Shown here: piece by piece, positions 1,436-45,813 of the stretch
Numbering within the stretch: the first letter of the stretch is position 1
Layout: each line of letters begins with the position of its first letter
Source of the DNA: Bacteroides sp.
GTDB lineage: Bacteria > Bacteroidota > Bacteroidia > Bacteroidales > Bacteroidaceae
Assembly (NCBI GenBank): GCA_017621035.1
Contig: JAGATY010000077.1
Span: 1-46,837 of the forward strand
DNA: 46,837 bases
Reading direction: 5' to 3'
Made by a program: the position numbers and the translations under genes
The notes under the pieces: generated by a model
What the model saw: only the letters and a program-made list of their open reading frames with translations
Databases searched by the model: none
Told to the model about the DNA's origin: nothing

Positions 1436-1660
1436 ACTCAACGGGTGCAAGACACCGTCCCAACTCGGGAAAGCCTCCGCAACCGTTGAGTGACACTGTC
1501 CCGACCCCGGGAAAGTGCTTTGCAACCGTTGAGTAACGCCGTCCCAGCCTCGGGAAAGTGCTTTGCAACCGTTGAGTGGCACTGTCCCGCCCCGGGAAAG
1601 CCTCTGCAACCGCTGAGTGGCGTTGTCCCGCCCCCGGGACAGTGTCTTGCAACCGATGAG
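1436..1660 (+). repeat. Tandem array, 43-bp period, five units (array 1)
   Basis: The head GCAACCGNTGAG recurs at 1479, 1522, 1565, 1606 and 1649 (steps 43, 43, 41, 43). Each unit also carries an imperfect palindrome of the form TCCCG...CGGGA. The array starts 18 nt after the preceding stop codon. Its two ends (about 1437-1457 and 1640-1660) are imperfect inverted copies of each other. It belongs to the same sequence family as the array at 16579-16831 but lies in the opposite orientation. Confidence 0.85.
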
Positions 1661-1683
1661 AACCATCAGAACCCATTTTTTAT

Positions 1684-1767
1684 GAACACAGAGACACAAA
1701 AACACAGAGAATCGTTCGTAGTTGACAGTTGATAATTAACCCTCCGTGTCTCCGTGTCTCTGTGTTC
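1684..1767. repeat. Inverted ACACAGAGAC repeat
   Basis: Positions 1684-1710 (GAACACAGAGACAC...) are inverted at 1741-1767 (...TGTCTCTGTGTTC). The spacer holds a GTTGACAGTTGATAATT motif that also recurs elsewhere. The same 9-10 bp module (ACAGAGACAC, with GGAG variants) forms the palindrome at 4505-4592 and flanks the element at 2633-2868. Together with array 1 it fills the 392-bp gap before the next gene, where I see no other gene. Confidence 0.7.
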
Positions 1768-1810
1768 CAAATCAAAATCATTATTATAAACCATTTAATA
1801 CATTTGAAAG

Positions 1811-2608
1811 ATGAAGCAGATAGAAAACTTCAAGATTGGAAACCTCCGCACCGAGGAGGACTTCGGCTTCCAGAAACGAGTGGAAACCGCCGCCCTGGCC
1901 ATGCTCGACCAGGAGAGTGACAAGGCCATGGTGGACGCCTACGTGGCCGCCCTGGCACAGTTTGACGCCGCCCTGAAGCAGAGCCAGAAGAACAGTCAGA
2001 CCGAGGCCGTGACCGAAGCCGACGCCGCCTTCGACGCCCTCTACACCAACGCCTACGCCCTGGCCCGCATCCTGCCCGCCCATCCCACTGCCGAGGCCGC
2101 CGAGGCCGGAAAGGTCATCCTCGCCATGTTCGACAAGTACGGCTCCATCACCCGCCTGGGCTACAACGAGGAGTACGGCGCCGCCCACAACCTGCTGCAA
2201 GACCTGGCCACCCTCACCGCCGACCAGCTCACCGCCACCGCCTTCACCCCCTGGCTGGAAGCGCTGAACCTGGCCTGCGCCCGCTTCCAGATAGCCCGCG
2301 AGAGCAAGGCCACCGAAGACGCCGCCCGCGTCACCGGCCTGGTGAAGGACGCCCGCACCGCCGCCGACACGGCCTACAAGACCCTCGTGCAGAAAGTCAA
2401 CGCCCTCTGCGTCGTCATGGGCGAGGAGCACTACGCCGCCTTCATCGACCAGGTGAACGTCTATGTGGCCGACGCGCAAGCCACGCTGAAGTCCCGCGCC
2501 ACGCGCTCGGCGAACAAGAGTACGGAGGAGGGAGAAGAGAGTACAGAAAACGGAGAACAGAGTACAGATACAGATACAGATACGTCGAATGAGTATCCGA
2601 TAGAGTAA
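1811..2608 (+). CDS. DUF6261-type protein, function unknown
   Basis: A 265-residue protein with no signal peptide and no membrane segments, rich in Ala, Glu and Lys and apparently largely helical. The opening MKQIENFKIGNLRTEEDFGF and the overall layout match my recollection of DUF6261 proteins, which occur almost only in Bacteroidetes and have no known function. The last 30 or so residues change to a low-complexity acidic tail (STEEGEE, TDTDTDT). That tail is encoded by GAGTACAG/ACAGAG repeat DNA which continues past the stop codon, so the C-terminus probably grew from repeat sequence. A TACATTTG motif at 1799-1806 lies only 4 nt before the ATG, too close for a normal leader. Codon use is strongly GC-rich. 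Confidence 0.6.
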   Translation: MKQIENFKIGNLRTEEDFGFQKRVETAALAMLDQESDKAMVDAYVAALAQFDAALKQSQKNSQTEAVTEADAAFDALYTNAYALARILPAHPTAEAAEAGKVILAMFDKYGSITRLGYNEEYGAAHNLLQDLATLTADQLTATAFTPWLEALNLACARFQIARESKATEDAARVTGLVKDARTAADTAYKTLVQKVNALCVVMGEEHYAAFIDQVNVYVADAQATLKSRATRSANKSTEEGEESTENGEQSTDTDTDTSNEYPIE

Positions 2609-2632
2609 AGAGGACAGAGAACAGAGAACAGA

Positions 2633-2868
2633 GGATGGCACGCGGATGACGCGGATTGGGGCGGATGACCGCAGATTTTTCTTTTATTCTTAATCAAAAC
2701 GAGACCTGTGTCAAAATTCCCTCCTCCGTGTCATTTTTCGCTTCGCTCAACAACTCGTCTGAGGAACGAAGTGACGAAGAATGACACGACATTCTGATAG
2801 TCGTTTCCCTTTTTGATACAATCCCTAAAAAAAATCTGCGGTCATCCGCCCCAATCCGCGTGCCATCC
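2633..2868. repeat. MITE-like element with about 40-bp terminal inverted repeats
   Basis: The left arm 2633-2680 and right arm 2830-2868 are inverted copies built on GCGGATTGGGGCGGATGACC. The left arm has an extra 9-bp TGACGCGGA duplication. The interior (about 150 bp) holds a second long imperfect hairpin (GTGTCATT... near 2736 pairing with ...AATGACAC near 2785) and no ORF. An ACAGAG/CTCTGT module flanks both arms. This fills most of the gap before the phosphodiesterase gene. Confidence 0.75.
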
Positions 2869-2911
2869 TCTGTGTCTCCGTGTCTCTGTGTTCGATAGTA
2901 CCAATCCCCTC

Positions 2912-2942
2912 TTGCACAAATCTCAATCTTATGCTACCTTTG
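2912..2942 (+). promoter_or_regulatory. Bacteroidetes-type promoter for the phosphodiesterase gene
   Basis: TTG at 2912-2914 and TACCTTTG at 2935-2942 are separated by 20 nt, matching the Bacteroidetes -33/-7 pattern. The start codon at 2972 gives a short leader. Confidence 0.65.
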
Positions 2943-2971
2943 CGGCACTAACCCTAAAAAGTATATCGAGT

Positions 2972-3754
2972 ATGAAAGGAAAGAAGATTATGACGGTGCT
3001 GGCATGGGCACTCTGCTTAGCGGCAGGCGTGCAGGCTCAGCAGACAGAGGTGATTGCCCACCGGGGCTACTGGAAAACGGAAGGGTCGGCACAGAACTCG
3101 CTGACGGCACTGGTAAAGGCGGACGGAATAGGCTGCTACGGCTCGGAGTTTGATGTGTGGCTGACAGCTGACGACCGGTTGGTGGTGAATCATGACACCA
3201 AGTTCAAAGGCGTGACGCCCGAGGAGGCCACGGAGCGCGTTTGCACCTCGGTGGTGCTGGACAACGGCGAACAGCTGCCCACGCTGAAACAGTATCTGCA
3301 GATAGGCAAGGCACTGAAGACGAAGCTGGTGCTGGAGTTCAAGGTGAGCAAGCTGTCGGAAGAGCGGCAGACGCTGGGCGTGGAGAAAATCGTGGCTCTG
3401 GTGAAGGAGATGGGGCTGGAGGAGCGCACGGAGTACATCGCCTTCTCGCTACACGCCACGAAGGAGTTCATCCGCCTGGCACCGAAAGGAACACCCGTCT
3501 ACTACCTGAACGGTGACCTCAGTCCGCAAGCGCTGAAAGAGATAGGGGCGGCAGGACCGGACTATCACCACTCCGTCTTCAAGAAGAATCCCACCTGGAT
3601 AAAGCAGTGCCACGACCTGGGCATGAAGGTGAACGCCTGGACGGTGAACGATGCGGAGACAATGCAATGGCTCATCCGCGAACAGGCAGACTTCATCACC
3701 ACCAACGAGCCGGAACTGCTGCAGCAGGTTATCAGCGAAGAGAAGAAGAAGTAA
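2972..3754 (+). CDS. Glycerophosphodiester phosphodiesterase family protein
   Basis: Predicted to hydrolyse glycerophosphodiesters to glycerol-3-phosphate and an alcohol, probably in the periplasm. The chosen ATG gives 260 residues opening with a Sec signal (MKGKKIMTVLAWALCLAAGVQAQ); the frame is open upstream but only through repeat DNA. GDPD family residues are visible: H30-R31 in IAHRGYW, E59 and D61 in GSEFDVW, and H74 in VVNHD. A late VNAWTVN motif and ITTNEPE near the C-terminus are also typical. The length suits a single catalytic domain. The next gene follows 32 nt later and encodes an outer-membrane barrel, so the two probably share a transcript. Substrate specificity is unknown. Confidence 0.85.
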   Translation: MKGKKIMTVLAWALCLAAGVQAQQTEVIAHRGYWKTEGSAQNSLTALVKADGIGCYGSEFDVWLTADDRLVVNHDTKFKGVTPEEATERVCTSVVLDNGEQLPTLKQYLQIGKALKTKLVLEFKVSKLSEERQTLGVEKIVALVKEMGLEERTEYIAFSLHATKEFIRLAPKGTPVYYLNGDLSPQALKEIGAAGPDYHHSVFKKNPTWIKQCHDLGMKVNAWTVNDAETMQWLIREQADFITTNEPELLQQVISEEKKK

Positions 3755-3786
3755 TAACTATCAGATTGTTTAACCTAAAAGAAAGA

Positions 3787-4488
3787 ATGAAAATGAACAG
3801 ATTGAAAATGAACATGGCGGCAGTTGCTTTGGCCCTCATTATGCCACTGGCGGTCGCTGCACAGGAGAAAGTAGAAGCCTCGGTAGGCGCAGACGTGGTA
3901 AGCAGCTACCTCTGGCGCGGTCAGGACCTGGGCGGTGTAAGCATTCAGCCGGAAGTGAGCGTGTCGTACAAGGGACTGTCACTCACAGCGTGGGGTTCGG
4001 TAGGCATCGAGAGCAGCGACACGAAGGAGATAGACCTGACGCTGGGCTACGAAACCGGTGGATTCAGCATCTCCATCACCGACTATTGGACAAACGAGAA
4101 TCCCAAGTACTTTCACTACGGTGCCCGCAGCACGAGCCACGTGTTTGAAGCACAGGTGGGATACGACTTCGGCCCCGTGGCCGTGAACTGGTTCACCAAC
4201 TTTGCCGGTGCCGATGGCGTGAACAAGGACGACAAGCGAGCCTACTCATCATACATCAGTCTGGCTGCCCCCTTCACCTTGGGCGGACTGGAGTGGACGG
4301 CCGAAGTGGGTGCCACACCTTGGGCAACGGACTACTACGAGGCGAGCGGCTTCTCGGTAATCGACATCAGTCTGGAAGTTTCCAAGGAAATCAAGATAAC
4401 CGACTCCTTCAGCCTGCCACTGTTTGCCAAGCTGGCTTGCAATCCCCGCACTGAGGCCACTCACTTTGCCGTGGGACTGAGCTTCTGA
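3787..4488 (+). CDS. Predicted outer-membrane beta-barrel protein (TorF-like)
   Basis: A 233-residue exported protein. The start at 3787 (MKMNRLKMNM) gives a clean signal peptide ending AVAAQ; a frame open farther upstream overlaps the phosphodiesterase gene and lacks a signal. The mature part opens with VSSYLWRGQDLGG, the signature start of small TorF-type barrels. It continues as alternating polar/hydrophobic strands with aromatic girdles and ends in a terminal phenylalanine (FAVGLSF), the usual outer-membrane insertion signal. No ligand is evident. It sits 32 nt after the phosphodiesterase gene, so it may be a pore for the same class of small phosphorylated compounds, but this is inference from position. 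Confidence 0.7.
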   Translation: MKMNRLKMNMAAVALALIMPLAVAAQEKVEASVGADVVSSYLWRGQDLGGVSIQPEVSVSYKGLSLTAWGSVGIESSDTKEIDLTLGYETGGFSISITDYWTNENPKYFHYGARSTSHVFEAQVGYDFGPVAVNWFTNFAGADGVNKDDKRAYSSYISLAAPFTLGGLEWTAEVGATPWATDYYEASGFSVIDISLEVSKEIKITDSFSLPLFAKLACNPRTEATHFAVGLSF

Positions 4489-4504
4489 AGCAGAACAGGA
4501 TTCG

Positions 4505-4592
4505 GACACAGAGACACGGAGACGCAGAGGTTTTATTTCAAGTATTTGATTCTCTGAAATAAATCGACGCTGCGTCTCCGTGTCTCTGTGTC
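4505..4592. repeat. Perfect 23-bp inverted repeat (ACACAGAGAC family)
   Basis: Positions 4505-4527 are exactly inverted at 4570-4592. Inside them TTTATTTCA (from 4531) pairs with TGAAATAAA (from about 4554), so the transcript could form a long interrupted hairpin. It lies 16 nt after the barrel gene stop and may act as a terminator. No T-tract follows it. Confidence 0.8.
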
Positions 4593-4651
4593 TATACATC
4601 CTCTCCCCGCCCTCACCTAAAAACATTTTGCCACATTTTCCAGCAAATACT

Positions 4652-4681
4652 TTTGCAAATAGAAACTTGTTCGTATCTTTG
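4652..4681 (+). promoter_or_regulatory. Promoter for asnB
   Basis: TTTG at 4652-4655, an 18-nt spacer and TATCTTTG at 4674-4681, followed 48 nt later by the asnB start. Confidence 0.65.
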
Positions 4682-4728
4682 CCGAGCAAAAAGACAATTA
4701 AACAAGTAACCATAAATCACAAATCATT

Positions 4729-6408
4729 ATGTGTGGCATTGTAGCTATCTTTCAGATTAAGCAGCAGACGCAAGAGCTGCGCACCAAAGCATTGAAAATG
4801 TCTCAGAAACTTCGTCACCGCGGACCGGACTGGAGCGGCATCTATGTAGGAGGCAGCGCCATATTGGCACACGAACGCCTCTCCATCGTAGACCCTCAGA
4901 GCGGCGGACAACCCCTCTACTCGCCCGACAAGAAACAAGTGCTCGCCGTGAACGGAGAAATCTACAACCATCGTGACATCCGCGCCCGGTACAACGGAAA
5001 GTACAACTTCCAGACGGGAAGCGACTGCGAAGTCATCCTCGCCCTCTACCGCGACAAGGGCATCGACTTCTTAGAGGAACTGAACGGCATCTTTGCTTTC
5101 GCCCTCTACGATACGGAGACGGACGACTTCCTCATCGCCCGCGACCCTATCGGCGTGATACCTCTCTATATAGGCTTCGACGCCGACGGAAAGGTGTATT
5201 GCGCCAGCGAACTGAAGGCATTGGAAGGCTTCTGCGACCGCTACGAACCGTTCCTGCCCGGCCATTACTATCGGGGCAGCGAGGGACGAATGGTGAGGTG
5301 GTACAAACGAGACTGGATGGAGGCTCCCAAGACTTCTGCCGAAGAGAAGCAATCGCTAACCGCTCTTTCCGGAACAATCAAGGAGAGCTTGGAGGCAGCC
5401 GTGAAGCGGCAGTTGATGAGCGATGTGCCATACGGCGTGCTGCTTTCGGGCGGACTGGACTCTTCGGTCATCTCTGCCATTGCCAAGAAGTATGCCGCCA
5501 AGCGTGTGGAGACCGACGGACAAAAGGAAGCCTGGTGGCCGCAACTCCATTCGTTTGCCGTGGGATTGAAGGGCGCACCGGACTTGGCCAAGGCTCGCGA
5601 GGTGGCCGACTACATCGGCACCGTGCATCACGAAATCAACTACACCATTCAGGAGGGGCTGGATGCCATTCGCGACGTCATCTACTACATCGAGACTTAC
5701 GATGTGACCACCGTCCGCGCCTCCACACCCATGTATCTGCTGGCGCGTGTCATCAAGAGCATGGGCATCAAAATGGTGCTGAGTGGCGAAGGAGCGGACG
5801 AAGTGTTCGGCGGCTATCTCTACTTCCACAAGGCGCCCGATGCAAAGGCTTTCCACGAGGAGACCGTCCGCAAATTGGGCAAGCTCTACCTATATGATTG
5901 TCTGCGTGCCAACAAATCGCTCTCCGCATGGGGTGTCGAGGGTCGCGTACCTTTCCTCGACAAGGAATTTCTGGACATCGCCATGCGCCTCGACCCTGCC
6001 GTCAAGATGTGTCCGGGACAGGTCATCGAGAAGAAGATTGTGCGCGAAGCCTTTGCCGACATGCTTCCCGAGAGCGTGGCTTGGCGACAGAAGGAACAGT
6101 TCAGCGACGGTGTAGGTTATTCATGGATTGACACACTGAAAGCCGTCACCGCCGAAGCTGTGAGCGACGAACAAATGGCACGTGCTGCCGAACGCTTCCC
6201 CATCAACACCCCGATGAACAAGGAGGAATACTACTATCGCACCATCTTCGAGGAGCATTTCCCCAGCGAAAGTGCCGCTCGAAGCGTACCCCACGAGGCC
6301 AGCATCGCCTGCTCCACCGCCATCGCCCTGGAATGGGACAAAGCCTGGAAGGGACAGAACGAACCGAGCGGACGTGCGGTGAAAGGGGTGCACGAAGAAG
6401 CGTACTAA
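4729..6408 (+). CDS. asnB: Asparagine synthetase B (glutamine-hydrolysing)
   Basis: Converts aspartate, glutamine and ATP to asparagine, glutamate, AMP and PPi in the cytoplasm. The 559-residue length is typical of AsnB. The N-terminal glutaminase domain starts MCGIVAIF, and C2 becomes the nucleophile after Met removal. RHRGPD (about residues 30-35), LAVNGEIYNH and GSDCEVI follow as expected. The synthetase half carries the PPi loop SGGLDSS at about residues 240-246, and SGEGADEVFGGY and GVEGRVPFLD farther on. A glutamine synthetase gene begins 38 nt downstream, so the two probably form a nitrogen-assimilation operon in which one makes and the other uses glutamine. Very confident. Confidence 0.96.
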   Translation: MCGIVAIFQIKQQTQELRTKALKMSQKLRHRGPDWSGIYVGGSAILAHERLSIVDPQSGGQPLYSPDKKQVLAVNGEIYNHRDIRARYNGKYNFQTGSDCEVILALYRDKGIDFLEELNGIFAFALYDTETDDFLIARDPIGVIPLYIGFDADGKVYCASELKALEGFCDRYEPFLPGHYYRGSEGRMVRWYKRDWMEAPKTSAEEKQSLTALSGTIKESLEAAVKRQLMSDVPYGVLLSGGLDSSVISAIAKKYAAKRVETDGQKEAWWPQLHSFAVGLKGAPDLAKAREVADYIGTVHHEINYTIQEGLDAIRDVIYYIETYDVTTVRASTPMYLLARVIKSMGIKMVLSGEGADEVFGGYLYFHKAPDAKAFHEETVRKLGKLYLYDCLRANKSLSAWGVEGRVPFLDKEFLDIAMRLDPAVKMCPGQVIEKKIVREAFADMLPESVAWRQKEQFSDGVGYSWIDTLKAVTAEAVSDEQMARAAERFPINTPMNKEEYYYRTIFEEHFPSESAARSVPHEASIACSTAIALEWDKAWKGQNEPSGRAVKGVHEEAY

Positions 6409-6446
6409 GCAACCCATCAAACCACAAGAGTTATCATAATAGGCTT

Positions 6447-8636
<2,190 letters not shown>

Positions 8637-8684
8637 CACCCCTCCCCGAGAAATATTTCTTTTGTTGGTTGTTTTAAGTTTGCA

Positions 8685-8726
8685 AGGAGGCAAATCGTCG
8701 TGAGATGAGTTGCCTCCTATTCTTTT
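8685..8726 (+). terminator. Rho-independent terminator after glutamine synthetase
   Basis: AGGAGGCAA at 8685-8693 pairs exactly with TTGCCTCCT at 8710-8718, followed by a T-rich stretch (TTCTTTT). It closes the asnB-glnN unit. Confidence 0.8.
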
Positions 8727-8761
8727 ACCCCGACGCCGAAAACTATTTGCAGAATATTCCG

Positions 8762-9464: not shown

Positions 9465-9606
9465 GTGCACTACCTGAATTCGTCGAGTTACCCCATTCAC
9501 CACCCCCAAATAGAGGGAGCCATCCGCCTGCCGCCCGTTCCCCCCACCACAGCAGCAAGTACGGCGGGCTCCCCCCCTGCTTTCCCCCCTTCCTTCCCCT
9601 CCGAAA

Positions 9607-9683
9607 GGTCAACCCACCCCCTCCGCAGACCCAAACAACCCACCAAATGGGTCAACCTACCCCCTACGTAGACCCAAAAACTA
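9607..9683 (+). repeat. 43-bp repeat, two units, GGGTC...GACCC family
   Basis: CAGACCC at 9626 and TAGACCC at 9669 are 43 bp apart, within units of the form GGTCAACC-CACCCCCT-C-GACCC. This is the reverse-complement version of the five-unit array at 32855-33060. Confidence 0.7.
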
Positions 9684-9765
9684 TCCCCGGACCATCCTCC
9701 ACCCCCGGACCCTCCCCCAACCCCTCCACAAGGGAGGGGAGGAGGATGCGCGGTGGGTGGGAAAA

Positions 9766-9951
9766 GTATCTGAAGGGAGGGGCGGGAGTATCTGAAGGGG
9801 GAAAGCGGAGTAGCTGAAGGGGGAAGCGGGAGTATCTCAAGGAGGGATGGGAGTATCAGAAGGGGGAAGCGGAGTATCTGAAGGAGGAGGCGGAGTATCT
9901 GAAGGGGGGGAAGTGGGAGTAGCTCAAGGGGAAAGTAGGAGTATCTCAAGT
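9766..9951 (+). repeat. Tandem array with 21-22 bp period, nine units
   Basis: GTATCTGAAGG and variants start at 9766, 9788, 9810, 9832, 9853, 9874, 9895, 9919 and 9941. The strand is almost entirely purine. Shorter copies of the same unit occur at 32309-32360 and, inverted, around 32735-32795. The period is half that of the 42-43 bp arrays. No gene is visible anywhere between 9465 and 10440. Confidence 0.8.
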
Positions 9952-10056
9952 CCCCCTCAACGAGGGGGTGGCGCAACGCGACGGGGGAGGTTAAACCAAG
10001 TTGAAAGATAAAAGATGAAAGTTGACAGTTATAGGGGTACAGTTATATAATTGGTA

Positions 10057-16578: not shown

Positions 16579-16831
16579 CCCCGAAAACAGTACTCAACGG
16601 TTGCAAAAGGGTGTCGGGAAGCCCCGACAGGTCGCGCAACCGTTGCAAAGCATCGTCGGGAGTCCCGACAGCACTACTCAACCGTTGCAAAGCACTGTCG
16701 GGAGGTCCCGACAGCATTACTCAAGCGTTGCAAAGTATTGTCGGGAGGTCCCGACAGTGTTACTCAAGCGTTGCAAAGCATTGTCGGGAGTCCCGACAGC
16801 GCTACTCAACGCTTGAGTTCTGTTTTCGGGA
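16579..16831 (+). repeat. Tandem array, 42-43 bp period, five units, with terminal inverted repeats (array 2)
   Basis: TTGCAAA recurs at 16601, 16643, 16685, 16728 and 16771. Most units contain a strong palindrome such as TGTCGGGAGGTCCCGACA, with loop length varying by one base. The ends 16579-16603 and 16807-16831 are inverted copies (21 of 25 positions). The array begins 6 nt after the symporter stop and is the reverse-orientation relative of array 1. The hairpins may end the upstream transcript. No gene is seen from 16574 to 16938. Confidence 0.88.
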
Positions 16832-32256: not shown

Positions 32257-32258
32257 GA

Positions 32259-32405
32259 GGACCCTCCCCCGACCCCTCCCAAGGGAGGGGAGTGGCTGCG
32301 CGGTGGGAGTATCTGAAGATGGGGGCGAAGTATCTGAAGGTGGGAGGCAGGAGTAACTCAAGTCCCCCTCTGCGAGGGGGTGGCCGAAGGACGGGGGAGG
32401 TTAAA
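32259..32405 (+). repeat. Mosaic of dispersed modules after the efflux operon
   Basis: In order: a GGACCCTCCCCC / CCTCCCAAGGGAGGGG / GCTGCGCGGTGGG module, three GTATCTGAAG-type units (32309, 32330, 32353), then TCCCCCTCTGCGAGGGGGTGGC. The same modules in the same order occur at 9706-10000. The whole stretch 32257-33060 has no recognisable gene. Confidence 0.75.
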
Positions 32406-32697: not shown

Positions 32698-32850
32698 TCC
32701 CCCGCCCTGCGGGCACCCCCTCGCAGAGGGGGACTTGAGATACTCTCGCCTTCCCACTTCAGATACTCCCGCCCCTCCCTTCAGATACTTTCCCCACCCA
32801 CCGTGCATCCTCCTCCCCTCCCTTGGGAGGGGTCGGGGGAGGGTCCTGGG
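32698..32850 (-). repeat. Inverted mosaic modules
   Basis: Reading on the minus strand these are the same modules as at 32259-32405 (TCCCAAGGGAGGGG, then TATCTGAAG units, then CCCCTCTGCGAGGGGG), so the long palindrome at 32457-32630 is bracketed by inverted copies of the mosaic, giving a roughly 590-bp mirror structure. Confidence 0.7.
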
Positions 32851-32854
32851 GATA

Positions 32855-33060
32855 GTTTGGGTCTGTGTAGGGGGTAGGTTGACCCATCGGAGAGGTAGTT
32901 TGGGTCTGGGGAGGGGGTCAGTTGACCCATCGAAGGGATAGTTTAGGTCTGAGGAGGGGGGCCGTTGACCCATCGGAGGGGTAGGTTGGGTCTGTGGAGG
33001 GGGTAGGTTGACCCATCGGAGTGATAAAAAAGGTCAAAGGAGGGGGGTGGTTGACCTAAA
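32855..33060 (+). repeat. Tandem array, exact 43-bp period, five units (array 3)
   Basis: GGGTCTG or its variants start at 32859, 32902, 32945, 32988 and 33031, each exactly 43 bp apart. Every unit contains an inverted pair GGGTC...GACCC (GGTC...GACC in the last). The final unit runs into the promoter of the AraC-type gene. The reverse-complement family member lies at 9607-9683. Confidence 0.88.
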
Positions 33061-33792: not shown

Positions 33793-34929
33793 ATGCGTTT
33801 TCGTCGTTCCGAAATATTTCTTCATCTGCTGTGCTGGGCCGTTGTGCTGACGTTTCCGTTCATCATGATGACGCGCAGCGGGTTCGAGGTGAGCCTGACG
33901 CAGTACTTGCGCCACGGCAGCATTGTGCCGCTGTCGTTCTTCTTCGTGTTCTACATCAATTACTTTGTACTCATTCCGCGCTACCTCTTTGGCAGGCAAA
34001 CCAAGAAGTTCTTACTGCTGAACGTGCTGCTGATTGTGCTGGTGGCGGGGTTTAATTATGAATTACAAATTATGAATGATGAATTAACTAAACCTATTCA
34101 AAATTCAAAATTCATAATTCAAAATTCTCCCCCTCCTCCCCGTCCTCCCCGTTTGATATTCTTCTTCCGCGACCTCTTTACCATGGTTCTCACCGTGGGT
34201 CTGAGCGTGGCCATCCGCCTCAGCAGCCGCTGGAGCCAGATAGAGAACGCACGCCGCGAAGCCGAACGCGCTCGCACCGAAGCCGAGCTGACCAACCTGC
34301 GCAGCCAGCTGAATCCGCACTTCTTGCTGAACACGCTGAACAACATCTACGCCCTGATAGCCTTCGATGCCGACAAGGCACAAACGGCCGTGCAGGAGTT
34401 GTCGCGCCTGCTGCGCCACGTACTGTACGACAATCGCCAGGCCACCGTACCGATAGAAAAGGAGATGGACTTCATGCGCAACTACATCGAGCTGATGCGC
34501 ATCCGCCTTGCGCCCAACGTGCAGGTGGAGACGCAGTTCGACATTCCCTCCGGCAGCCGGACGCAGATAGCACCGCTCATCTTCATCTCCCTCATCGAGA
34601 ACGCCTTCAAGCACGGCATCTCACCCACCCGCCCCAGCTACATCCACATCCGTTTCAGCGAGTCGCAGGGCAGCGTGGAGTGCGACATCCGCAACAGCTA
34701 CCACCCCAAAAGCACCTCAGACAAGAGCGGCAGCGGCATCGGTCTGGAGCAGGTGCGCAAGCGCCTGGAACTGACCTACCCCGGCCGGTATGAGTGGAAG
34801 CATGGGGTGAGCGAGGATGGAAAGGAATACTATTCGGTATTGAAGACCCAGCAGAGCCCCAAGACCCTCCCCCAACCCCTCCCAAGGGAGGGGAGTGGCT
34901 GCGCAGTGAAAGCAAATCATAAATCATAA
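33793..34929 (+). CDS. LytS/YesM-type sensor histidine kinase with repeat-derived insertions
   Basis: Membrane histidine kinase of the His_kinase (PF06580) class, 378 residues. Hydrophobic segments occur at about 8-26, 43-62, 72-87 and 121-141. A coiled-coil linker (150-172) leads to the phospho-acceptor H176 in LNPHFLLNTLNNI, and the ATP domain has IENAFKHGI (N-box) and SGSGIGLEQVRKRL (G-box). Residues 88-112 (YELQIMNDELTK, IQNSKFIIQNS) are encoded by an AATTATGAATT/AATTCATAATT repeat that sits between two membrane segments. The last 25 or so residues (LPQPLPREGSGC) are encoded by the AAGGGAGGGG module. Both look like insertions kept in frame. The response regulator gene follows 41 nt later. 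Confidence 0.85.
   Translation: MRFRRSEIFLHLLCWAVVLTFPFIMMTRSGFEVSLTQYLRHGSIVPLSFFFVFYINYFVLIPRYLFGRQTKKFLLLNVLLIVLVAGFNYELQIMNDELTKPIQNSKFIIQNSPPPPRPPRLIFFFRDLFTMVLTVGLSVAIRLSSRWSQIENARREAERARTEAELTNLRSQLNPHFLLNTLNNIYALIAFDADKAQTAVQELSRLLRHVLYDNRQATVPIEKEMDFMRNYIELMRIRLAPNVQVETQFDIPSGSRTQIAPLIFISLIENAFKHGISPTRPSYIHIRFSESQGSVECDIRNSYHPKSTSDKSGSGIGLEQVRKRLELTYPGRYEWKHGVSEDGKEYYSVLKTQQSPKTLPQPLPREGSGCAVKANHKS
34053..34127 (+). repeat. AT-rich ATTATGAATT repeat inside the kinase gene
   Basis: AATTATGAATTACAAATTATG and the inverted AATTCATAATTCAAAATTC pieces lie within the reading frame. The same words occur outside genes at 33765-33790 and 34915-34970. Confidence 0.8.
34858..34905 (+). repeat. 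CCTCCCAAGGGAGGGG module forming the kinase C-terminus
   Basis: GACCCTCCCCCAACCCCTCC followed by CAAGGGAGGGGAGTGGCTGC is the same module as at 32267-32310. Here it supplies the last coding part of the kinase gene. Confidence 0.8.
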
Positions 34930-34970
34930 ATCAAAAATCATAACTCATAAATCATAATTCATAATTCAAA

Positions 34971-35669
34971 ATGCCCCTAACCTGTGCCCTCATCGACGAC
35001 GAGCCTCTGGCCTTGAGCCTGCTGGAGAGCTACGTAGAGAAAACCCCCTTTCTGGAACTGACCGGACGCTGGAACAGCGCCGTGCAAGCCATGAACGAAC
35101 TGCCCAATATGCAGGTGGACCTGCTGTTTCTCGACATCCAGATGCCCGAACTGAACGGACTGGAGTTCTCGAAAATGGTCAGCCCCACGACACGCATCGT
35201 CTTCACCACCGCCTTCTCGCAGTACGCCATCGACGGCTACAAAGTGAATGCGCTGGACTATCTACTGAAACCCATCGCCTACCCCGACTTTCTGGCTGCC
35301 GCCAACCGTGCCCAGCAGTGGTTCGATATGATTCGCCCCAAAGAGGAGATTCAAAGCATCTTCGTGAAGAGCGACTACAAGCTGGTGCAGATAGAACTGA
35401 AGAACCTGCTCTACGTGGAGGGGCTGAAGGACTACATCAAAATCTACGAAGAAGATAAGCAGCGCCCCGTACTGACCCTGATGTCCATGAAGGCGATGGA
35501 AGAACTGCTGCCGGCCAGTCGTTTCCTGCGCGTGCACCGGTCGTACATCGTGAACAAGGAGAAGATTCGTATCGTAGACCGCGGACGCATCGTCTTCGGC
35601 AAAACCTTCATCCCCATCAGCGACAGCTACAAGCCGGCGTTTCAAGAGTTTCTGGAGAAGAGAAGCTGA
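34971..35669 (+). CDS. LytTR-family response regulator
   Basis: A 232-residue regulator, cognate partner of the preceding kinase. The receiver domain (about 3-118) has the acidic pocket DDE at 9-11, phospho-acceptor D55 in LLFLDIQMPELNG, T-switch in VFTTAFS and K105-region LDYLLKPI. The LytTR DNA-binding domain (about 130-228) shows IFVKSDYKLVQIELKNLLYVEGLKDYIKIY in order (IFVKSDYK, LLYVEGLKDYIKIY) and the closing FLRVHRSYIVN. LytS/LytTR pairs usually control a few neighbouring genes; candidates are the AraC-type gene, the efflux operon or the symporter downstream. Confidence 0.93.
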   Translation: MPLTCALIDDEPLALSLLESYVEKTPFLELTGRWNSAVQAMNELPNMQVDLLFLDIQMPELNGLEFSKMVSPTTRIVFTTAFSQYAIDGYKVNALDYLLKPIAYPDFLAAANRAQQWFDMIRPKEEIQSIFVKSDYKLVQIELKNLLYVEGLKDYIKIYEEDKQRPVLTLMSMKAMEELLPASRFLRVHRSYIVNKEKIRIVDRGRIVFGKTFIPISDSYKPAFQEFLEKRS

Positions 35670-35762: not shown

Positions 35763-35866
35763 ACAGACGAAGTCGTGAGACTTCCCAATAGAATAGTTTA
35801 GTTAAGTCTAGTTTAGTTTTTGTGTGAAGCACTTTCCCTGTAAGCGAACAACGGAAAGTGCTTTTT
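35763..35866 (+). ncRNA. Candidate small RNA or attenuated leader
   Basis: Predicted transcript of about 100 nt from the promoter above to the T-run at 35862-35866. It contains a hairpin AAGTC-GTGA-GACTT (35770-35783), an AT-rich single-stranded middle with TAGTTTAGTT words, and the terminator hairpin. There is no ATG in it. A separate TACTTTTG element at 35895-35902, after the terminator, could serve the symporter gene, so this unit may be an independent small RNA. It could also be a leader whose terminator is read through under some condition. Confidence 0.45.
35827..35866 (+). terminator. Intrinsic terminator
   Basis: AAGCACTTTCC (35827-35837) pairs perfectly with GGAAAGTGCTT (35853-35863), followed by TTT. 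Confidence 0.88.
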
Positions 35867-35935
35867 GTATGCAGCGTATGTCGGGGGAATGTAGTACTTT
35901 TGTGAGTTGAAAGTTGATAGTTAAAAACAAATAAG

Positions 35936-39468: not shown

Positions 39469-39492
39469 ATCGGACGAAAAAGACTGGAAAAG

Positions 39493-39523
39493 TTTGCACT
39501 CTATTCGGAAAGCCTTATATTTG
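39493..39523 (+). promoter_or_regulatory. Promoter for the acyl-CoA ligase gene
   Basis: TTTG at 39493-39496, 19-nt spacer, TATATTTG at 39516-39523, 29 nt before the start. Confidence 0.65.
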
Positions 39524-39552
39524 CACATTCCAAATTAAAATGTGCAACCAAC

Positions 39553-41211: not shown

Positions 41212-41224
41212 GGCTTCCCGGTTA

Positions 41225-41304
41225 GCACGGATTACGCAATTACATTGATTCATAAACAAAGCTCATACTTACTGTAGCTACCGCGTAGTCCGTGCGTTTT
41301 TTTT
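41225..41304 (+). terminator. Long-loop terminator after the acyl-CoA ligase gene
   Basis: GCACGGATTACGC (41225-41237) pairs with GCGTAGTCCGTGC (41283-41295), one mismatch, followed by a run of eight T. The loop is about 45 nt. Confidence 0.75.
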
Positions 41305-41329
41305 GTCCCTACTCAAAACACAATCCATC

Positions 41330-42703
41330 ATGATTTTGATTCATTTTTCACTGAGAACGAAGCCGGTAACTTCGTTCCAAGCTCCTATTTCCGTTCGCGA
41401 AACTGAACAAAAGACGTTGCTGAGTGGCGCTACAGGCCGCGGAAGAGAACCTAACTGTCGGCAAGCCGGAATTTCCGTTCGGAAAACTGAGCGGAAGAGG
41501 TTGCTTGGTGGCCCTGCAGGCCGCGGAAGGGAGCGAAACGTCCTCTTCGCCATCCTCACACTCCTCACAATGACCTGCCTGCCGATGAGGGCGCAAAGTC
41601 CGGTAGAGAAACAGAGCGGAAAGTCCGTCGTAAACCTCTCGCTCTGGAAAAACATCGCCACGCATCGTACAGACACCACCTCCACCGTCGCGCTCAACCT
41701 CGGCATCGTCTCGCAGATGAATGCCTTGCGTGGATTTGGTACCAATCTGCTCAGCAGCACGGTTCTACGCAGCGCGGAGGGACTTCAGCTGGCGGGTATC
41801 TCCAACCTCGTGGGGAAAGACTTTGCAGGCGTGCAAGTGGCCGGCATCACCAACATCGCGGGGAGCCAAGCGCGCGGCGTGGTGGTTTCGGGCATGGTGA
41901 ACATAACCGGAGCAGAAATTCGCGGCCTCTCGCTGACGGGGTTGGTCAACATCGCAGGCGGAGAGGTCGACGGAATGATGGCGAGCGGGCTTATCAACAT
42001 TGCAAGCTCGCCCCTTCGCGGGGGACAACTCTCCGGCATGTGTAACATTGCGGCCGACACGGTGCGCGGTGCCTCGGTCAGCGGATTGATGAACGTGGCC
42101 GGCAAAAGTATGCGCGGCCTACAACTTTCAGCCCTGGGCAACGTGGTGGGCGAGCAGCTGAGCGGGGCGCAAATAGGTCTCGCCAACCTCGCGGTGAGCG
42201 GAAAAGGGGTGCAGCTGGGTTTGGTGAACTACTATAAGGAGGATTTCAGCGGCATACAGCTTGGATTGGTCAACGCAAACCCGCAAACGCGTGTGCAGCT
42301 GATGCTCTTCGCGGGGAATCGAAACAAATTCAACATCGCTGCACGTTTCAAAAATAAAATCCTATACACCACGCTCGGCATCGGACTCCCCTATTACGAC
42401 GCCGACCAACTCTTCTCCACCTCCTTTTTCTACCGCGCGGGAGCCGCCATGCCGCTGTGCAAGCGAATTTCGCTGACGGGCGACTTGGGCTATCAGCACA
42501 TTGAAACGTTTCGCAGCTGGAAACAAGGACTCCCCGCGCGATTGTACGGCTTGCAAGCCCGCGTCAGCCTGGAATACGAACTTTCTGCCCGCTTCGCGCT
42601 CTTCGCAACGGGCGGATACGGTGGCACGCGCTTTTATCAAAAGGACGTGACGTTCGATAAAGGAATTATCCTTGAATGCGGCATGATATTGCTCCGCATT
42701 TAG
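41330..42703 (+). CDS. LA_2272-like surface repeat protein with repeat-expanded N-terminus
   Basis: About 457 residues from the ATG at 41330. Residues about 135-320 are a run of roughly 20-residue repeats of the form G-x-Q-x-(S/A)-G-(L/I)-x-N-I-A-G, for example LQLAGISNLVG, VQVAGITNIAG and LSLTGLVNIAG. These probably form a beta-helix, as in LA_2272-type surface repeat proteins. The C-terminal part (AGAAMPLCKRISLTGDLGYQ) looks like barrel strands. A clear signal peptide (VLFAILTLLTMTCLPMRAQS) lies only at residues 71-90. The 70 residues before it are encoded largely by a 42-bp periodic repeat (ISVRETEQKTLL / ISVRKTERKRLL, GRGRE). The true start may therefore be internal, such as a TTG near 41504, or the protein may have an elongated leader. 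Family call moderate. Confidence 0.65.
   Translation: MILIHFSLRTKPVTSFQAPISVRETEQKTLLSGATGRGREPNCRQAGISVRKTERKRLLGGPAGRGRERNVLFAILTLLTMTCLPMRAQSPVEKQSGKSVVNLSLWKNIATHRTDTTSTVALNLGIVSQMNALRGFGTNLLSSTVLRSAEGLQLAGISNLVGKDFAGVQVAGITNIAGSQARGVVVSGMVNITGAEIRGLSLTGLVNIAGGEVDGMMASGLINIASSPLRGGQLSGMCNIAADTVRGASVSGLMNVAGKSMRGLQLSALGNVVGEQLSGAQIGLANLAVSGKGVQLGLVNYYKEDFSGIQLGLVNANPQTRVQLMLFAGNRNKFNIAARFKNKILYTTLGIGLPYYDADQLFSTSFFYRAGAAMPLCKRISLTGDLGYQHIETFRSWKQGLPARLYGLQARVSLEYELSARFALFATGGYGGTRFYQKDVTFDKGIILECGMILLRI
41387..41550 (+). repeat. 42-bp periodic palindromic array reading in frame (array 4)
   Basis: Palindromic cores TTCGCGAA (41394-41401), CCGCGG (41437-41442), a degenerate TTCGGAAA (41478-41485) and CCGCGG (41521-41526) have centres exactly 42 bp apart. 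Alternate units match best, giving an 84-bp direct repeat (ATTTCCGTTCG at 41387 and 41471). Because 42 is a multiple of three the frame stays open. Confidence 0.8.
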
Positions 42704-42714
42704 TTACTTTCTAT

Positions 42715-42900
42715 CTTCCGCGGCCGCGAAAACTACCTAAACGGTTTACAAATAGGTTTTCGCGGCCGCGATTTCCTATTTTTCAATCTGCAAACACGTT
42801 TTCGCGGTCGCGGAATCCTATTTTTCAATCTGCAAACCGGTTTTTTCGGTCGCGAAATCCTATTTTCCTTTTTACAAGGTCGATTTCGCGACCGAGGTAG
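42715..42900 (+). repeat. Tandem array, exact 42-bp period, five palindromic units (array 5)
   Basis: GCGGCCGC or variants start at 42720, 42762, 42804, 42846 and 42888. Two of the five cores are perfect NotI-type palindromes and the others (GCGGTCGC, TCGGTCGC, GCGACCGA) are close. Spacers share CCTATTTTTCAATCTGCAAA. The array begins 12-17 nt after the preceding stop. From 42901 to 43121 I see only AT-rich non-coding sequence. Confidence 0.9.
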
Positions 42901-43121
42901 CTTCGCAATCACTTTTTAGGTCGTTTTTTCTACTTGGGAATGGAGTTTCTCCACTCCCCCGCCCCATTTTGTCGCCATCAAATGGCATCCTACTGTTTAC
43001 AAATCCGATTTACAAATCAGACAAATAACCCTGTCTGTCGCTTAATTATAAATAAAACTTAAATAGGATAGCCGTCAACAAATTAGCGGCTGATTTATTA
43101 GGATATTTCCGAGCAAAACCC

Positions 43122-43129
43122 TATTTTTG
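43122..43129 (+). promoter_or_regulatory. -7 element for the helicase gene
   Basis: TATTTTTG matches TAnnTTTG, 33 nt before the start. No convincing -33 element is seen. Confidence 0.4.
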
Positions 43130-43162
43130 CACCATCAAACCAGCTTAAAAGAAAACAAACAT

Positions 43163-45616
43163 ATGGAAGCATCCAATCCCACCCACAACCTATTGAATGA
43201 ACTGAACGAAAGTCAGCGTGCCGCCGTTGAATACATCGATGGTCCTCAACTTGTGATTGCTGGCGCAGGCTCGGGAAAGACCCGCGTGCTTACTTACAAG
43301 GTTGCCTATCTGGTGGAAAGAGGCTTGCACCCGTTTAGAATCCTCGCCCTCACGTTTACCAACAAAGCGGCGCGTGAGATGAAGCAGCGCATTGCGAAAA
43401 CCGTGGGCGACGAGCGTGCACGTCATCTTTGGATGGGAACTTTCCACTCACTCTTTTTGCGAATCCTTCGCACGGAGCACGAAGCCATCGGCTTTAGCAG
43501 CAGATTCACAATTTACGACACGGCAGACAGCAAAAGTCTTATTCGCTCCATTATCAAGGAGATGCAACTGGACGAAAAGGTTTACAAGCCCTCGTCCGTG
43601 CAGAGCCGCATCAGCAACGCTAAAAATCACCTCATTGCACCGCCCGCGTATGCCAACGACCGACAGTTGTATGAGGACGATTGTGCGCGGAAGATGCCTG
43701 CCATCCGTGACATCTATCGCCGCTACTGGGAAAGGCTGCGACAATCGGATGCGATGGACTTCGACGACCTGCTTTTCCAAACTTATTTGCTCTTCCAACA
43801 AAATCCGCAAATTCTGAGCAGCTATCAGCAGCAATTTGCCTATATTCTGGTGGATGAGTACCAAGATACCAACTTTGCTCAGCATTGCATCGTGCGACAG
43901 CTGGCTGCACAGCATCAGCGTGTCTGCGTCGTGGGCGACGATGCGCAAAGCATCTATTCGTTCCGGGGCGCCAACATCGACAACATCCTGACGTTTGCCA
44001 ACTCCTTTCCCTCGGCCAAACTTTTCAAATTGGAGCAAAATTACCGCTCCACGCAGACGATTGTGGGGGCTGCTAACAGTCTGATTTCAAAAAACCGTCG
44101 GCAGATAGAGAAAAACGTGGTATCGATGAATGCCGAAGGCGAGAAAATTGCGCTGATACAGGCGTACAGCGACATCGAAGAGGGCGAAATCGTTGGAAAT
44201 AAGATTCGTAACCTCTGCTCCTGCTGCAATGCAAGCTATGCAGACTTTGCGATACTTTATCGCACGAACGCACAGAGCCGCATCTTTGAAGAGGTTCTTC
44301 GCAAGAAGGGGATTCCTTACCGCATCTATGGCGGCCTCTCTTTCTACCAGCGGAAGGAGATAAAAGATGTGATAGCTTATTTCCGCCTCGTAGTAAACCC
44401 GCACGATGAAGAGGCGCTCAAAAGAATCATCAATTATCCGGCCAGAGGAATCGGCGAGACCACTTTAAAAAAAGTAATTGGAGCCGCGGCCGAGTTTGGC
44501 GTCAGTCTCTGGCAGGTATTGTGCGAACCACTCAGTTTTGGCGTAAATGTAAACAGCGGAACGCTTGGAAAACTGCAAAAGTTCCGCTCGCTGATGGAGG
44601 AACCGATGCAGCGCGAAGCAAGCTCGGATGCCTACGAGTTGGGGCTGGAAATCTTGAAGAAATCCGGCATCGCGGAGGTATATGCGACCACGAAAGAGGT
44701 CGAGGAGATTGACCAGCGCGAGAATATCGAGGAACTGATGAACGGCATCAATCTCTTCGTCGAGCAACGTCGCGAAGAGGGCAACGAGCACGTTTCGCTG
44801 AGCGATTATCTCTCCGAAATCTCCCTCATCACCGACCAGGACATGGAGAAAGGAGATGATACTGAGTTTGTTACGCTCATGACCATTCACGCAGCAAAAG
44901 GACTCGAGTTTAAGTCTGTTTTCGTGGTGGGAATGGAGGAAAACTTGTTCCCGGGTGCCCAATCTGCCGAATCTGCCCAGCAACTTGAGGAGGAGCGTCG
45001 CCTCTTCTACGTCGCCCTGACCCGTGCCGAAGAGCGTTGTTTCCTCTCCTACTCCAAATCGCGCATGCACTATGGCAAAATGGATTATAGCGCCCCCAGC
45101 CGTTTCCTCAAAGACATCAACCCCCAATATCTCCACATCCCCCAAACAATGTTTACAAATAACCCCGTTTCTCGGAGCGAAAATCGAATCAATCAAGAGT
45201 CAACCCCCATTTTCAAAACTTTTGAAAAACCTAACCGAAGTTTTGGCTCCTCTCAGCAATCTTTTGAACAACCCAACCGAAACTTCAGCCCCAATCTCGG
45301 CCTGAAAACCGACCGCCCAATATCTTCTTCTCATCCCACAACCATACAACCCAACTTCAGAAAAGTGCAACCCACTTCTCCGGCTGACCAATCTAATTTC
45401 CGGAGAGTGCAGTCCGCTTCTCCTTCCGAGAACCGACCCAACCCCGTCCCCACCTTATCTATAGGCAGTCTCATTGAACACGACCGCTTTGGAATCGGCC
45501 AAGTTCTGCAGCTGGAAGGAACCGGCGACAACGCCAAAGCCACCATCCAATTTAAAAATGCCGGCGTCAAGCAACTCCTCCTCCGCTTCGCCCGCTTCAA
45601 GCTCATCACCCCATAA
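43163..45616 (+). CDS. UvrD/PcrA/Rep-type superfamily 1A DNA helicase
   Basis: An ATP-driven 3'-5' helicase for repair and replication restart. The ATG at 43163 (MEASNPTHNLLNELN) gives 817 residues; an upstream TTG coincides with the promoter and is unlikely. Motifs in order: Walker A AGAGSGKT (33-40), LTFTNKAAREM, Walker B DEYQDT, GDDAQSIYSFRGA, QNYRST, TIHAAKGLEFK and VALTRAEERCFLSYSK. After the helicase core comes a low-complexity linker of about 110 residues with loosely repeated FEKPNRSF/FEQPNRNF and NFRKVQ/NFRRVQ pieces. A PcrA-type C-terminal Tudor-like domain (IEHDRFGIGQVLQLEG) ends the protein; in PcrA/UvrD it contacts RNA polymerase. Confidence 0.93.
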   Translation: MEASNPTHNLLNELNESQRAAVEYIDGPQLVIAGAGSGKTRVLTYKVAYLVERGLHPFRILALTFTNKAAREMKQRIAKTVGDERARHLWMGTFHSLFLRILRTEHEAIGFSSRFTIYDTADSKSLIRSIIKEMQLDEKVYKPSSVQSRISNAKNHLIAPPAYANDRQLYEDDCARKMPAIRDIYRRYWERLRQSDAMDFDDLLFQTYLLFQQNPQILSSYQQQFAYILVDEYQDTNFAQHCIVRQLAAQHQRVCVVGDDAQSIYSFRGANIDNILTFANSFPSAKLFKLEQNYRSTQTIVGAANSLISKNRRQIEKNVVSMNAEGEKIALIQAYSDIEEGEIVGNKIRNLCSCCNASYADFAILYRTNAQSRIFEEVLRKKGIPYRIYGGLSFYQRKEIKDVIAYFRLVVNPHDEEALKRIINYPARGIGETTLKKVIGAAAEFGVSLWQVLCEPLSFGVNVNSGTLGKLQKFRSLMEEPMQREASSDAYELGLEILKKSGIAEVYATTKEVEEIDQRENIEELMNGINLFVEQRREEGNEHVSLSDYLSEISLITDQDMEKGDDTEFVTLMTIHAAKGLEFKSVFVVGMEENLFPGAQSAESAQQLEEERRLFYVALTRAEERCFLSYSKSRMHYGKMDYSAPSRFLKDINPQYLHIPQTMFTNNPVSRSENRINQESTPIFKTFEKPNRSFGSSQQSFEQPNRNFSPNLGLKTDRPISSSHPTTIQPNFRKVQPTSPADQSNFRRVQSASPSENRPNPVPTLSIGSLIEHDRFGIGQVLQLEGTGDNAKATIQFKNAGVKQLLLRFARFKLITP

Positions 45617-45645
45617 CCCACCCCATTTTCCCGCCGCGCCATCCA

Positions 45646-45813
45646 TCTCATCACCTCCTCCGCCCCTCTTTTCCTTCGCTCAACCTACTCCCGCAGCCCT
45701 TTTAGCCCTTTCCGCCCTCGTTCAACCTCTCTCATCACCCCCTCCGCCCCTCTTTTCTCTCGCCACATCCACCCCCGCAGCCCTTTTAGCCCTTTTCACC
45801 CTCGCCGCCCTCA
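45646..45813 (+). repeat. 84-bp direct repeat made of 42-bp units (array 6)
   Basis: TCTCATCACC starts at 45646 and 45730, with 84-bp units that match closely. Within each, TCG landmarks at 45676, 45718, 45760 and 45802 are exactly 42 bp apart (for example CCTTCGCTCAACCT and CCCTCGTTCAACCT). The strand is almost all pyrimidine and continues so to about 45900. It begins 30 nt after the helicase stop. No palindromes are seen and no gene is supported from 45617 to 46012. Confidence 0.78.

Follow-up and report, generated by a model that had tools for sequence, protein, structure and literature searches.

Plasmid iterons are short, tandemly repeated sites, spaced by about two turns of the helix, to which an initiator binds cooperatively. 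Unlike iterons, the tandem arrays of the Bacteroides sp. genome described here lie in many chromosomal gaps, with a different sequence at each. The host belongs to the same order as Porphyromonas gingivalis. In P. gingivalis, BrickBuilt and 464/PgRS elements are spacer-free, dispersed intergenic arrays with units of 23 and 41 nt, and units of 22 nt are reported for strain W83; repeats of 23 nt and those of 41 nt lack mutual homology, and long stem-loops are predicted (PMC4596501). BrickBuilt comprises 1 to 22.8 units with a leader, a tail and terminal inverted repeats like those of ISPg1/ISPg9, and the portion of PMC4596501 available to us draws no link between the 22-, 23- and 41-nt repeats through a common period. 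Set against that portion, our arrays are likewise intergenic, dispersed and tandem with near-equal unit lengths, and the BrickBuilt-type trait of dispersed intergenic tandem arrays of 22–23 or 41 nt is present. Unlike BrickBuilt, they fall into many more families, often have about three units, and have flanks that look inverted by eye in one family (family A) only.

REP elements are extragenic palindromes, and BIMEs are regularly spaced, alternate in orientation and are mosaic in composition (PMC2817692). Compared with the sections of that account at hand, our arrays share the extragenic palindromes of alternating orientation and the mosaic make-up, and differ in the many sequence families, the sharp two-turn spacing and the lack of a detected RAYT in this genome. 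In addition, Nostoc, Xanthomonas and Beggiatoaceae carry intergenic tandem heptamer repeats of a single unit length, according to the parts seen of two reports (PMC4692102, PMC4679880).

Arrays of the window

The window is the whole analyzed stretch of 46,837 nucleotides, in which the predicted 42–43-bp arrays were each tested against 200 shuffles in a lag scan (Table 1). The original prediction, which is borne out for the most part and extends past the window, listed six arrays with a 42–43-bp period. Those beginning at 1436, 16579, 32855 and 42715 bear this period, whereas 41387–41550 and 45646–45813 are two-copy 84-bp repeats, whose best lag-42 scores, 6.4 and 9.8, do not reach the 95% maxima of the shuffles (8.8 and 14.4). 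The 43-bp step of the two-unit copy at 9607–9683 was recovered, as were a 21–22-bp array at 9766–9951 and the anchor steps of 43/43/41/43 at 1436–1660 (significant lags 43 and 41) and 42/42/43/43 at 16579–16831 (significant lags 43 and 42). Four arrays do start within 60 nt past a stop codon, at 18, 6, 12 and 30 nt after the open reading frames ending at 1418, 16573, 42703 and 45616.

Table 1. Tandem repeats of the window
Feature	Position	Strand	Units and evidence
43-bp tandem array	1436..1660	+	about 5 units, each with two dyads, CAAC.GTTG and CCCG..CGGG; TRF, lag scan
Inverted two-unit copy of the 32849 array	9606..9688	-	lag 43; blast to 32935-33020, 78%
22-bp array, unit AGTATCTGAAGGGGGAAGCGG	9765..9950	+	8.5 units; TRF; belongs to composite element 9600-9960
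43-bp-family array, orientation opposite to the 1436 array	16579..16831	-	5.2 units; TRF
Inverted copy of 22/23-bp array	32733..32789	-	2.5 units; TRF, blast
43-bp array	32849..33056	+	4.8 units; steps 43 x4; TRF, lag scan (43)
Heptamer array AAATCAT, example of separate 7-bp class	34914..34972	+	8.6 units; TRF
84-bp repeat, no 42-bp array	41387..41539	+	two copies; lag 84 score 38.2; lag 42 below shuffles
42-bp array with strong dyad TTCGCGGTCGCGAA	42716..42866	+	TRF; lag 42
C/T-rich 84-bp repeat	45646..45804	+	two copies; 30 nt past uvrD stop; TRF; lag 84 score 50.8; lag 42 below shuffles

Apart from the pair of 84-bp repeats, the 42–43-bp arrays of the window form three families: the arrays at 1436 and 16579, which match at 76% over 108 bp; those at 32855 and 9607; and the array at 42715, the unit of which is symmetric under reverse complement (p=0.01). 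The half-units of 32849–33056 are partly similar, with an identity of 0.47 at lag 22 in the half-period profile. Together with 32733–32789, this array makes up a second composite element, which is an inverted copy of the first (9600–9960) at 81% identity over the best match. The arrays are not CRISPRs, given that the units are contiguous, the whole unit repeats and unique spacers are lacking.

Period and sequence family across the genome

The genome-wide period histogram, computed on 1.225 of 2.64 Mb, displays the predicted peaks. TRF reported 306 tandem arrays in this sample, comprising 114 at 21–22 bp, 13 at 41–43 bp and 93 heptamers, compared with three arrays after shuffling in 200-bp windows, which rejects a chance origin. 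A bias of TRF toward 22 bp was likewise rejected by simulation, with 13–17 of 20 arrays recovered at each period from 19 to 26. The arrays are mainly intergenic and occupy 86 of the 545 sampled gaps that are 60 bp or longer. Among intergenic arrays with a period of at least 12 bp, 68 of the 88 with at least 2.8 copies have a period of 21–22 bp and 11 have 41–43 bp, versus 16 of the 50 with fewer than 2.35 copies at 21–22 bp. Among periods of at least 12 bp, three or more copies occur almost exclusively at these lengths. An independent lag scan gave the same peaks, cleanest at 22, 44, 41 and 43, which are non-multiples of 7. Periods of 31–33 bp are nearly absent from the scan; three turns would phase the units equally well, and this near absence speaks against helical phase.

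The heptamer peak is as sharp as that at 21–22 bp and is not helical, which also weighs against a helical-phase reading. Heptamer arrays add to the lag-scan counts at 21, 42 and 84. The TRF arrays of 21, 22 and 41–43 bp are not heptamer multiples, since neither lag 7 nor lag 14 gives a signal in them. The 7-bp class, which resembles the heptamer repeats of Nostoc, Xanthomonas and Beggiatoaceae as far as the partial descriptions go, is therefore separate from the 21–22/41–43-bp class, which, unlike those repeats, has no 7-bp sub-period.

The period is independent of sequence family. At a similarity of 0.55, the 88 arrays with 2.8 or more copies fall into 45 clusters, including 30 at 21–22 bp and nine at 41–43 bp; at the loosest cut-off of 0.46, which adjoins the null maximum of similarity, they still form 26 clusters, 16 of them at 21–22 bp. 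Even when all 165 intergenic arrays with a period of at least 12 bp are chained at 0.46, 22 clusters remain, eight at 21–22 bp. The cluster counts at 0.55 and 0.46 rule out a single spreading sequence as the source of the common period. Relatives were sampled twice; of their intergenic arrays with periods of 12–60 bp, 14 of 20 in one sample and 25 of 39 in the other are at 21–22 bp, and none of 46 units resembles those of this genome. The proposal of a common length without common sequence is supported for 21–22 bp here and in the sampled relatives, and for 42–43 bp in this genome only. The same two samples contain no intergenic array of 41–43 bp (0 of 20 and 0 of 39), an observation that disfavors the helical-phase reading. 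A 110-kb sample of E. coli K-12, too small to serve as a period control, held no arrays, and two scans of viral contigs, with one exact pattern each, returned no match.

Palindromes, genomic position and mobility

The architecture of the 43-bp family is doubled: two palindromes alternate, with centers every 20.0–21.5 bp, and the 42–43-bp period is thus mostly a doubled module of about 21 bp. The initial suggestion of about four turns of B-DNA is sharpened, for this family, to two dyads about two turns apart. All 29 measured steps are 41–43 bp, and single arrays mix 41, 42 and 43. Units are reverse-complement symmetric in 9 of 13 arrays at 41–43 bp, and this class displays the alternating palindrome orientation typical of BIMEs. 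In one of the palindromes, P2, the two arms change together, with Watson–Crick pairs in 75 of 87 cells (permuted mean 37.6, maximum 62), a figure favored by choosing the loop to maximize pairing in the real units only and obtained from units that are kin by descent. Within arrays of 20–23 bp, hairpin covariation was searched for and not found, with one Watson–Crick double change among 193 changed cells. Just 36 of 125 arrays in this range have a significant dyad (p<=0.05), so that most lack one, and both results are again at odds with a helical-phase reading; where present, the dyad is 9 to 23 nt long and the period is still 20–23 bp.

Tandem hairpins in 3' untranslated regions could act at the RNA level as terminators or message-end stabilizers, which we regard as improbable. 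Among arrays of 41–43 or 84 bp, a flanking stop codon was available for 12, of which 7 are no more than 60 nt away from it, and a flanking start for 12, of which none is that close (0.31 expected in each case). The very stable folding of two family A copies (z -6.8 to -9.6 in three folds) is compatible with such a role, as is the P2 covariation. However, arrays of 21–22 bp are found in convergent (20), divergent (24) and co-directional (43) gaps, and 37 arrays oriented by transcription display no clear strand preference (G-U 27 versus A-C 21). The variable dyad length at a steady period also argues against RNA-level action. Furthermore, Rfam covariance models gave no match over the listed window arrays at E<=1, nor did they match the arrays of seven further loci at the gathering score.

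The arrays might instead be cargo of MITE-type selfish elements like BrickBuilt, spread through their terminal inverted repeats by a transposase of the host; the similar periods would then go back to a small number of founders. The 66-bp element of family A is dispersed and has flanks that look inverted by eye, and composite 9600–9960 has 17 genome matches including itself, mostly to parts of the composite. The 23-nt BrickBuilt and 41-nt 464/PgRS arrays, as described in the accessible part of PMC4596501, offer a precedent. Inverted flanks are somewhat enriched at 41–43/84 bp (0.29 above the null 95%, n=14), but arrays of 21 and 22 bp show no general excess, the fraction above the null 95% being 0.06 for 81 arrays at 22 bp; the null in both cases mixes copies of one family. 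Given also the many unrelated sequence families and the lack of a match to the Y1 (RAYT) transposase family PF01797 in this 91% complete genome, we regard this origin as very unlikely. PF01797 is present in 12 of the 25 genomes searched and has no match in this one; RAYT-driven mobility of the arrays was rejected on this ground. The reverse transcriptase family PF00078 also has no match in this 91% complete genome, leaving the earlier idea of RNA-templated copying unsupported.

Spacing and its candidate causes

The indel/substitution ratio, measured as 0.083, predicts about 0.6 indel-free arrays among 99, whereas 80 are free of indels. For family A, all 15 TRF-reported copies keep a gapless 3 x 22 bp, although selection by TRF at period 22 means that indel-bearing copies could be missed. 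Because other dispersed repeats have indels more often and three or more copies occur almost only at these lengths, it is supported, short of proof, that array spacing is kept. The repeat lengths of otherwise unlike sequences cluster sharply at about 21–22 and 42–43 bp, or two and four helical turns, a hint that it is the spacing and not the sequence that is preserved.

Length-biased duplication is a close rival to selection on spacing. Slippage past hairpins, staggered nicking with fill-in, or a transposition-linked event may copy a fixed 21–22 bp or so, with no later selection on spacing. We consider this possible, if doubtful. It would account for a length common to arrays of unrelated sequence, a second sharp length of 7 bp and the scarcity of significant dyads, and since arrays of about two copies already favor 21–22 bp, the pattern may be due in part to biased duplication. 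It fits poorly with the excess of indel-free arrays, with single arrays mixing steps of 41, 42 and 43 instead of one copied length, and with the division of 43-bp-family units into two dyads spaced by about 21 bp.

We tentatively favor, at somewhat less than even confidence, the reading that the window arrays are part of a genome-wide class of mosaic elements, mostly intergenic and REP/BIME-like, in which selection on DNA preserves the spacing of two-turn modules. Each module would span about 21 bp, equal to two turns of B-DNA. One module repeated head to tail would yield the 21–22-bp period, and two different or oppositely facing modules in alternation would make the repeat read as 41–43 bp. 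What is kept would be helical phase at the DNA level, with every module presenting the same face. The array could then be used by a DNA-binding protein, dimeric or architectural, or by in-phase hairpin extrusion under supercoiling, while the base sequence would be left to drift. A broader and rather unlikely proposal is a sequence-independent two-turn ruler of Bacteroidales, in which one conserved architectural protein or repair/replication activity would build or maintain arrays between genes in increments of about 21 bp, with spacing and symmetry heritable instead of sequence.

In summary, if spacing is kept, a notable share of intergenic gaps in this genome, the 86 of 545, would carry a signal invisible to sequence-based motif and homology searches. 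It would then become testable whether helical-phase selection or a length-measuring mutation process acts on bacterial repeats, and the unrelated 22-, 23- and 41-nt repeats of P. gingivalis would be united.

Repeat lengths across the genome

The draft genome G000, of which the window is one entire contig (C14), comprises 2.64 Mb in 93 contigs and is 91% complete. It is Bacteroidales-like and near Bacteroides. Its UvrD shares 58–67% identity with 29 other genus loci and, among named relatives, at best 62% over most of the protein (67% over part in one); no close sister was found among the relatives compared by UvrD. From 80 stretches of G000 plus the window (1,225,042 bases), TRF returned 306 arrays, overlapping rows being merged to the smallest period whose score reached 60% of the best, a rule that leans to short periods. 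The period histogram proposed in the original prediction peaks at 21–22 and 41–43 bp: 3 arrays have a period of 20 bp, 32 of 21, 82 of 22, 8 of 23, 3 of 33–34, 13 of 41–43 and 2 of 84, with 24 at 14–15 bp and the remainder scattered. Seven base pairs is a second sharp repeat length, with 93 arrays of mostly A/T-rich heptamers of many sequences; heptamers make up 8 of 88 arrays among 68 named loci of relatives.

A lag scan of intergenic DNA gave 55 and 82 events at lags 21 and 22, compared with 9 at lag 20 and 10 at lag 23, and 17, 33, 14, 30 and 24 at lags 41, 42, 43, 44 and 84, over a constant background of 7 events that is present in shuffles as well and probably reflects masked stretches. 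Given that heptamer arrays (55 events at lag 14, 28 at lag 28) add to lags 21, 42 and 84, the clean signals are 22, 44, 41 and 43. Coding DNA yielded 8 events at lag 21 and none at 22, 41, 42 or 43; as an internal control, 53 of its 74 TRF arrays with periods of at least 5 bp have a period that is a multiple of three.

As had been proposed, the period is common to unlike sequences. The 88 intergenic arrays with periods of at least 12 bp and at least 2.8 copies (68 at 21–22 bp, 11 at 41–43, one at 84 and 8 elsewhere) cluster, at a similarity cut-off of 0.55, not into one sequence but into 45 families (30, 9, 1 and 5, respectively). Arrays below 2.35 copies are spread more widely in length, 21–22 bp accounting for 16 of 50, or 6 of 25 with at least 90% matches. 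Thus many lengths occur at two copies and few besides 21–22 and 41–43 bp at three, a comparison in which short two-copy arrays score only if very alike.

Coding sequence was predicted by an ORF caller written for this analysis. Twelve of the 114 arrays at 21–22 bp fall within these predictions and 15 at the edge of a contig or sampled stretch; 43 occupy co-directional, 20 convergent and 24 divergent gaps. They avoid starts (0.07 of 67, expected 0.20) and are near neutral towards stops (0.33 of 63, expected 0.28). Arrays of 41–43 or 84 bp lie within 60 nt of a stop codon in 7 of 12 cases and of a start in 0 of 12 (expected 0.31 for either), each count omitting 3 of 15 arrays that have no such neighbour.

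Paired modules in the 41–43 bp arrays

The original prediction gave six arrays of the window, and a two-unit copy, a shared period of 42–43 bp. When each array was scanned by lag against 200 shuffles, this held for some and failed for two, at which lag 42 was not above shuffles (see table); the assignment of the first two arrays to one family stands.

Arrays and accompanying features in the window and in two relatives
Feature	Position	Observation
Array, 43-bp family	start 1436	42–43 bp steps
Array, 43-bp family	start 16579	42–43 bp steps; orientation opposite to 1436
Array	start 9607	42–43 bp step in two units
Array	start 32855 (also 32849)	42–43 bp steps
Array	start 42715	42–43 bp steps
Array	start 41387	two-copy 84-bp repeat
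Array	start 45646	two-copy 84-bp repeat
Composite element	9600–9960	8.5 22/23-mer and two 43-mer units (TRF)
Composite element, inverted copy	32733–33056	2.5 22/23-mer and 4.8 43-mer units (TRF)
Large inverted repeat	32258–32396 / 32700–32848	83% identity, within intergenic mosaic; between arms, heptamer array and plant miRNA model match below gathering score
sRNA BTnc049 (Bacteroides) match	35763–35868 (+)	100 bits, gathering score 81.9
Six clustered tRNA genes	46013–46625 (+)	3' of uvrD 3' array (Rfam tRNA model)
23-bp array, L093 (Tannerella MAG)	4829–5063	10.2 copies
23-bp array, L190 (genus member)	4785–5133	15.5 copies

The composite element joins a 43-bp array, a GC-rich hairpin and a 22/23-bp array; its first copy has 17 genome matches including itself, mostly to portions of the composite.

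Within the 43-bp family, the 29 unit steps at five places measure 43 bp (14), 42 bp (10) or 41 bp (5), mixed inside single arrays. Every unit carries two palindromes, with centres 20.5–21.5 bp apart one way and 20.0–21.5 bp the other. The second, P2, has three main arm types (CCG/CGG, AGC/GCT and GGG/CCC) plus some mismatched hybrids. Its inner-pair cells are Watson-Crick in 75 of 87 cases (permuted mean 37.6, maximum 62 in 10,000), in a parse that favours pairing in real units and among units that are related. This apparent arm covariation is strong but not clean evidence, and could stem from template-switch correction of imperfect palindromes. Units resemble their own reverse complement (p ≤ 0.05) in 9 of 13 arrays at 41–43 bp, 25 of 82 at 22, 2 of 32 at 21 and 0 of 93 at 7, and in 11 of 46 at 20–23 bp in relatives; the symmetry is absent at 32849 and 45646. 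Averaged over 12 arrays at 41–43 bp, a weak half-period signal appears at lags 20–22, 0.05–0.10 above base composition; 32849 does have a half-period signal, with an identity of 0.44–0.47 at lags 21–22. Given the paired palindromes, the reverse-complement symmetry and the half-period signal, the 42–43 bp period thus consists in most cases of two modules of about 21 bp.

Relatives and known systems

Relatives were sampled as eight genomes of the genus (640 kb) and 66 named loci (1.0 Mb; 68 minus two Caldilineaceae loci). Among intergenic arrays with periods of 12–60 bp, 21–22 bp accounts for 14 of 20 and 25 of 39, respectively. No intergenic array of 41–43 bp was found in either sample; one coding repeat with a period of 42 occurs in the genus sample. 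The relatives' 46 intergenic arrays at 20–23 bp form 43 clusters, and none of their units matches any unit of the G000 sample. In a scan of lags 15–49 3' of uvrD, 6 of 91 loci showed repetition at lag 21 or lag 22. Three of the loci (L071, L072 and L196) have in common one 22-bp array that starts about 8 nt past the stop codon and is conserved a little better (0.84–0.86) than the 105 bp that follow it (0.75–0.80); as these are close relatives, with UvrD 95–99% identical, this is weak evidence.

P. gingivalis is a member of the same order. MITE-like elements of this species have tandem repeats of 23 nt (BrickBuilt) and 41 nt (464/PgRS), without mutual homology, and strain W83 is reported to have 22-nt repeats (PMC4596501). 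The 23-bp arrays of L093 and L190 are like BrickBuilt in unit length. Searches of open full-text literature, which mostly excludes subscription papers, turned up no statement that such arrays share a two-turn period. REP/BIME elements are a functional analogue of the G000 arrays but differ in their accompanying Y1 transposase, which was sought and not found in the 91% complete genome; PF00078 reverse transcriptase likewise had no match there.

Possible retention of the spacing

At 21–22 bp, 80 of 99 arrays scoring at least 60 are indel-free, as are 51 of 64 with at most 85% matches. Simulated arrays run through the same program give an indel-free fraction of 0.58–0.69 at indel/substitution ratios of 0.1–0.05 (0.50–0.59 for diverged arrays) and 0.89 without indels (0.85). 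The ratio in dispersed intergenic repeats of G000 is 0.083 (635 gap openings and 7660 mismatches over 482 pairs). Family A (GCACAAGATGSCATCTTGTGCA), a dispersed 66-bp element, has 15 TRF copies in the sample, each of exactly three units; they carry 61 substitutions from the majority and no gap in 66 bp, in a TRF-based selection that could have missed copies with indels.

A duplication process that measures length could itself make the periods. It is a close rival to selection on spacing, because three-turn periods are almost missing though they would phase as well, the heptamer class is equally sharp without helical meaning, most arrays at 20–23 bp lack a significant dyad (present in 36 of 125), and a single Watson-Crick double change occurs among 193 changed cells in 77 such arrays. 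The indel counts, read against a simulation and one measured ratio, favour spacing under selection; the arrays would be best read as REP/BIME-like, mainly intergenic elements built of two-turn modules of about 21 bp.
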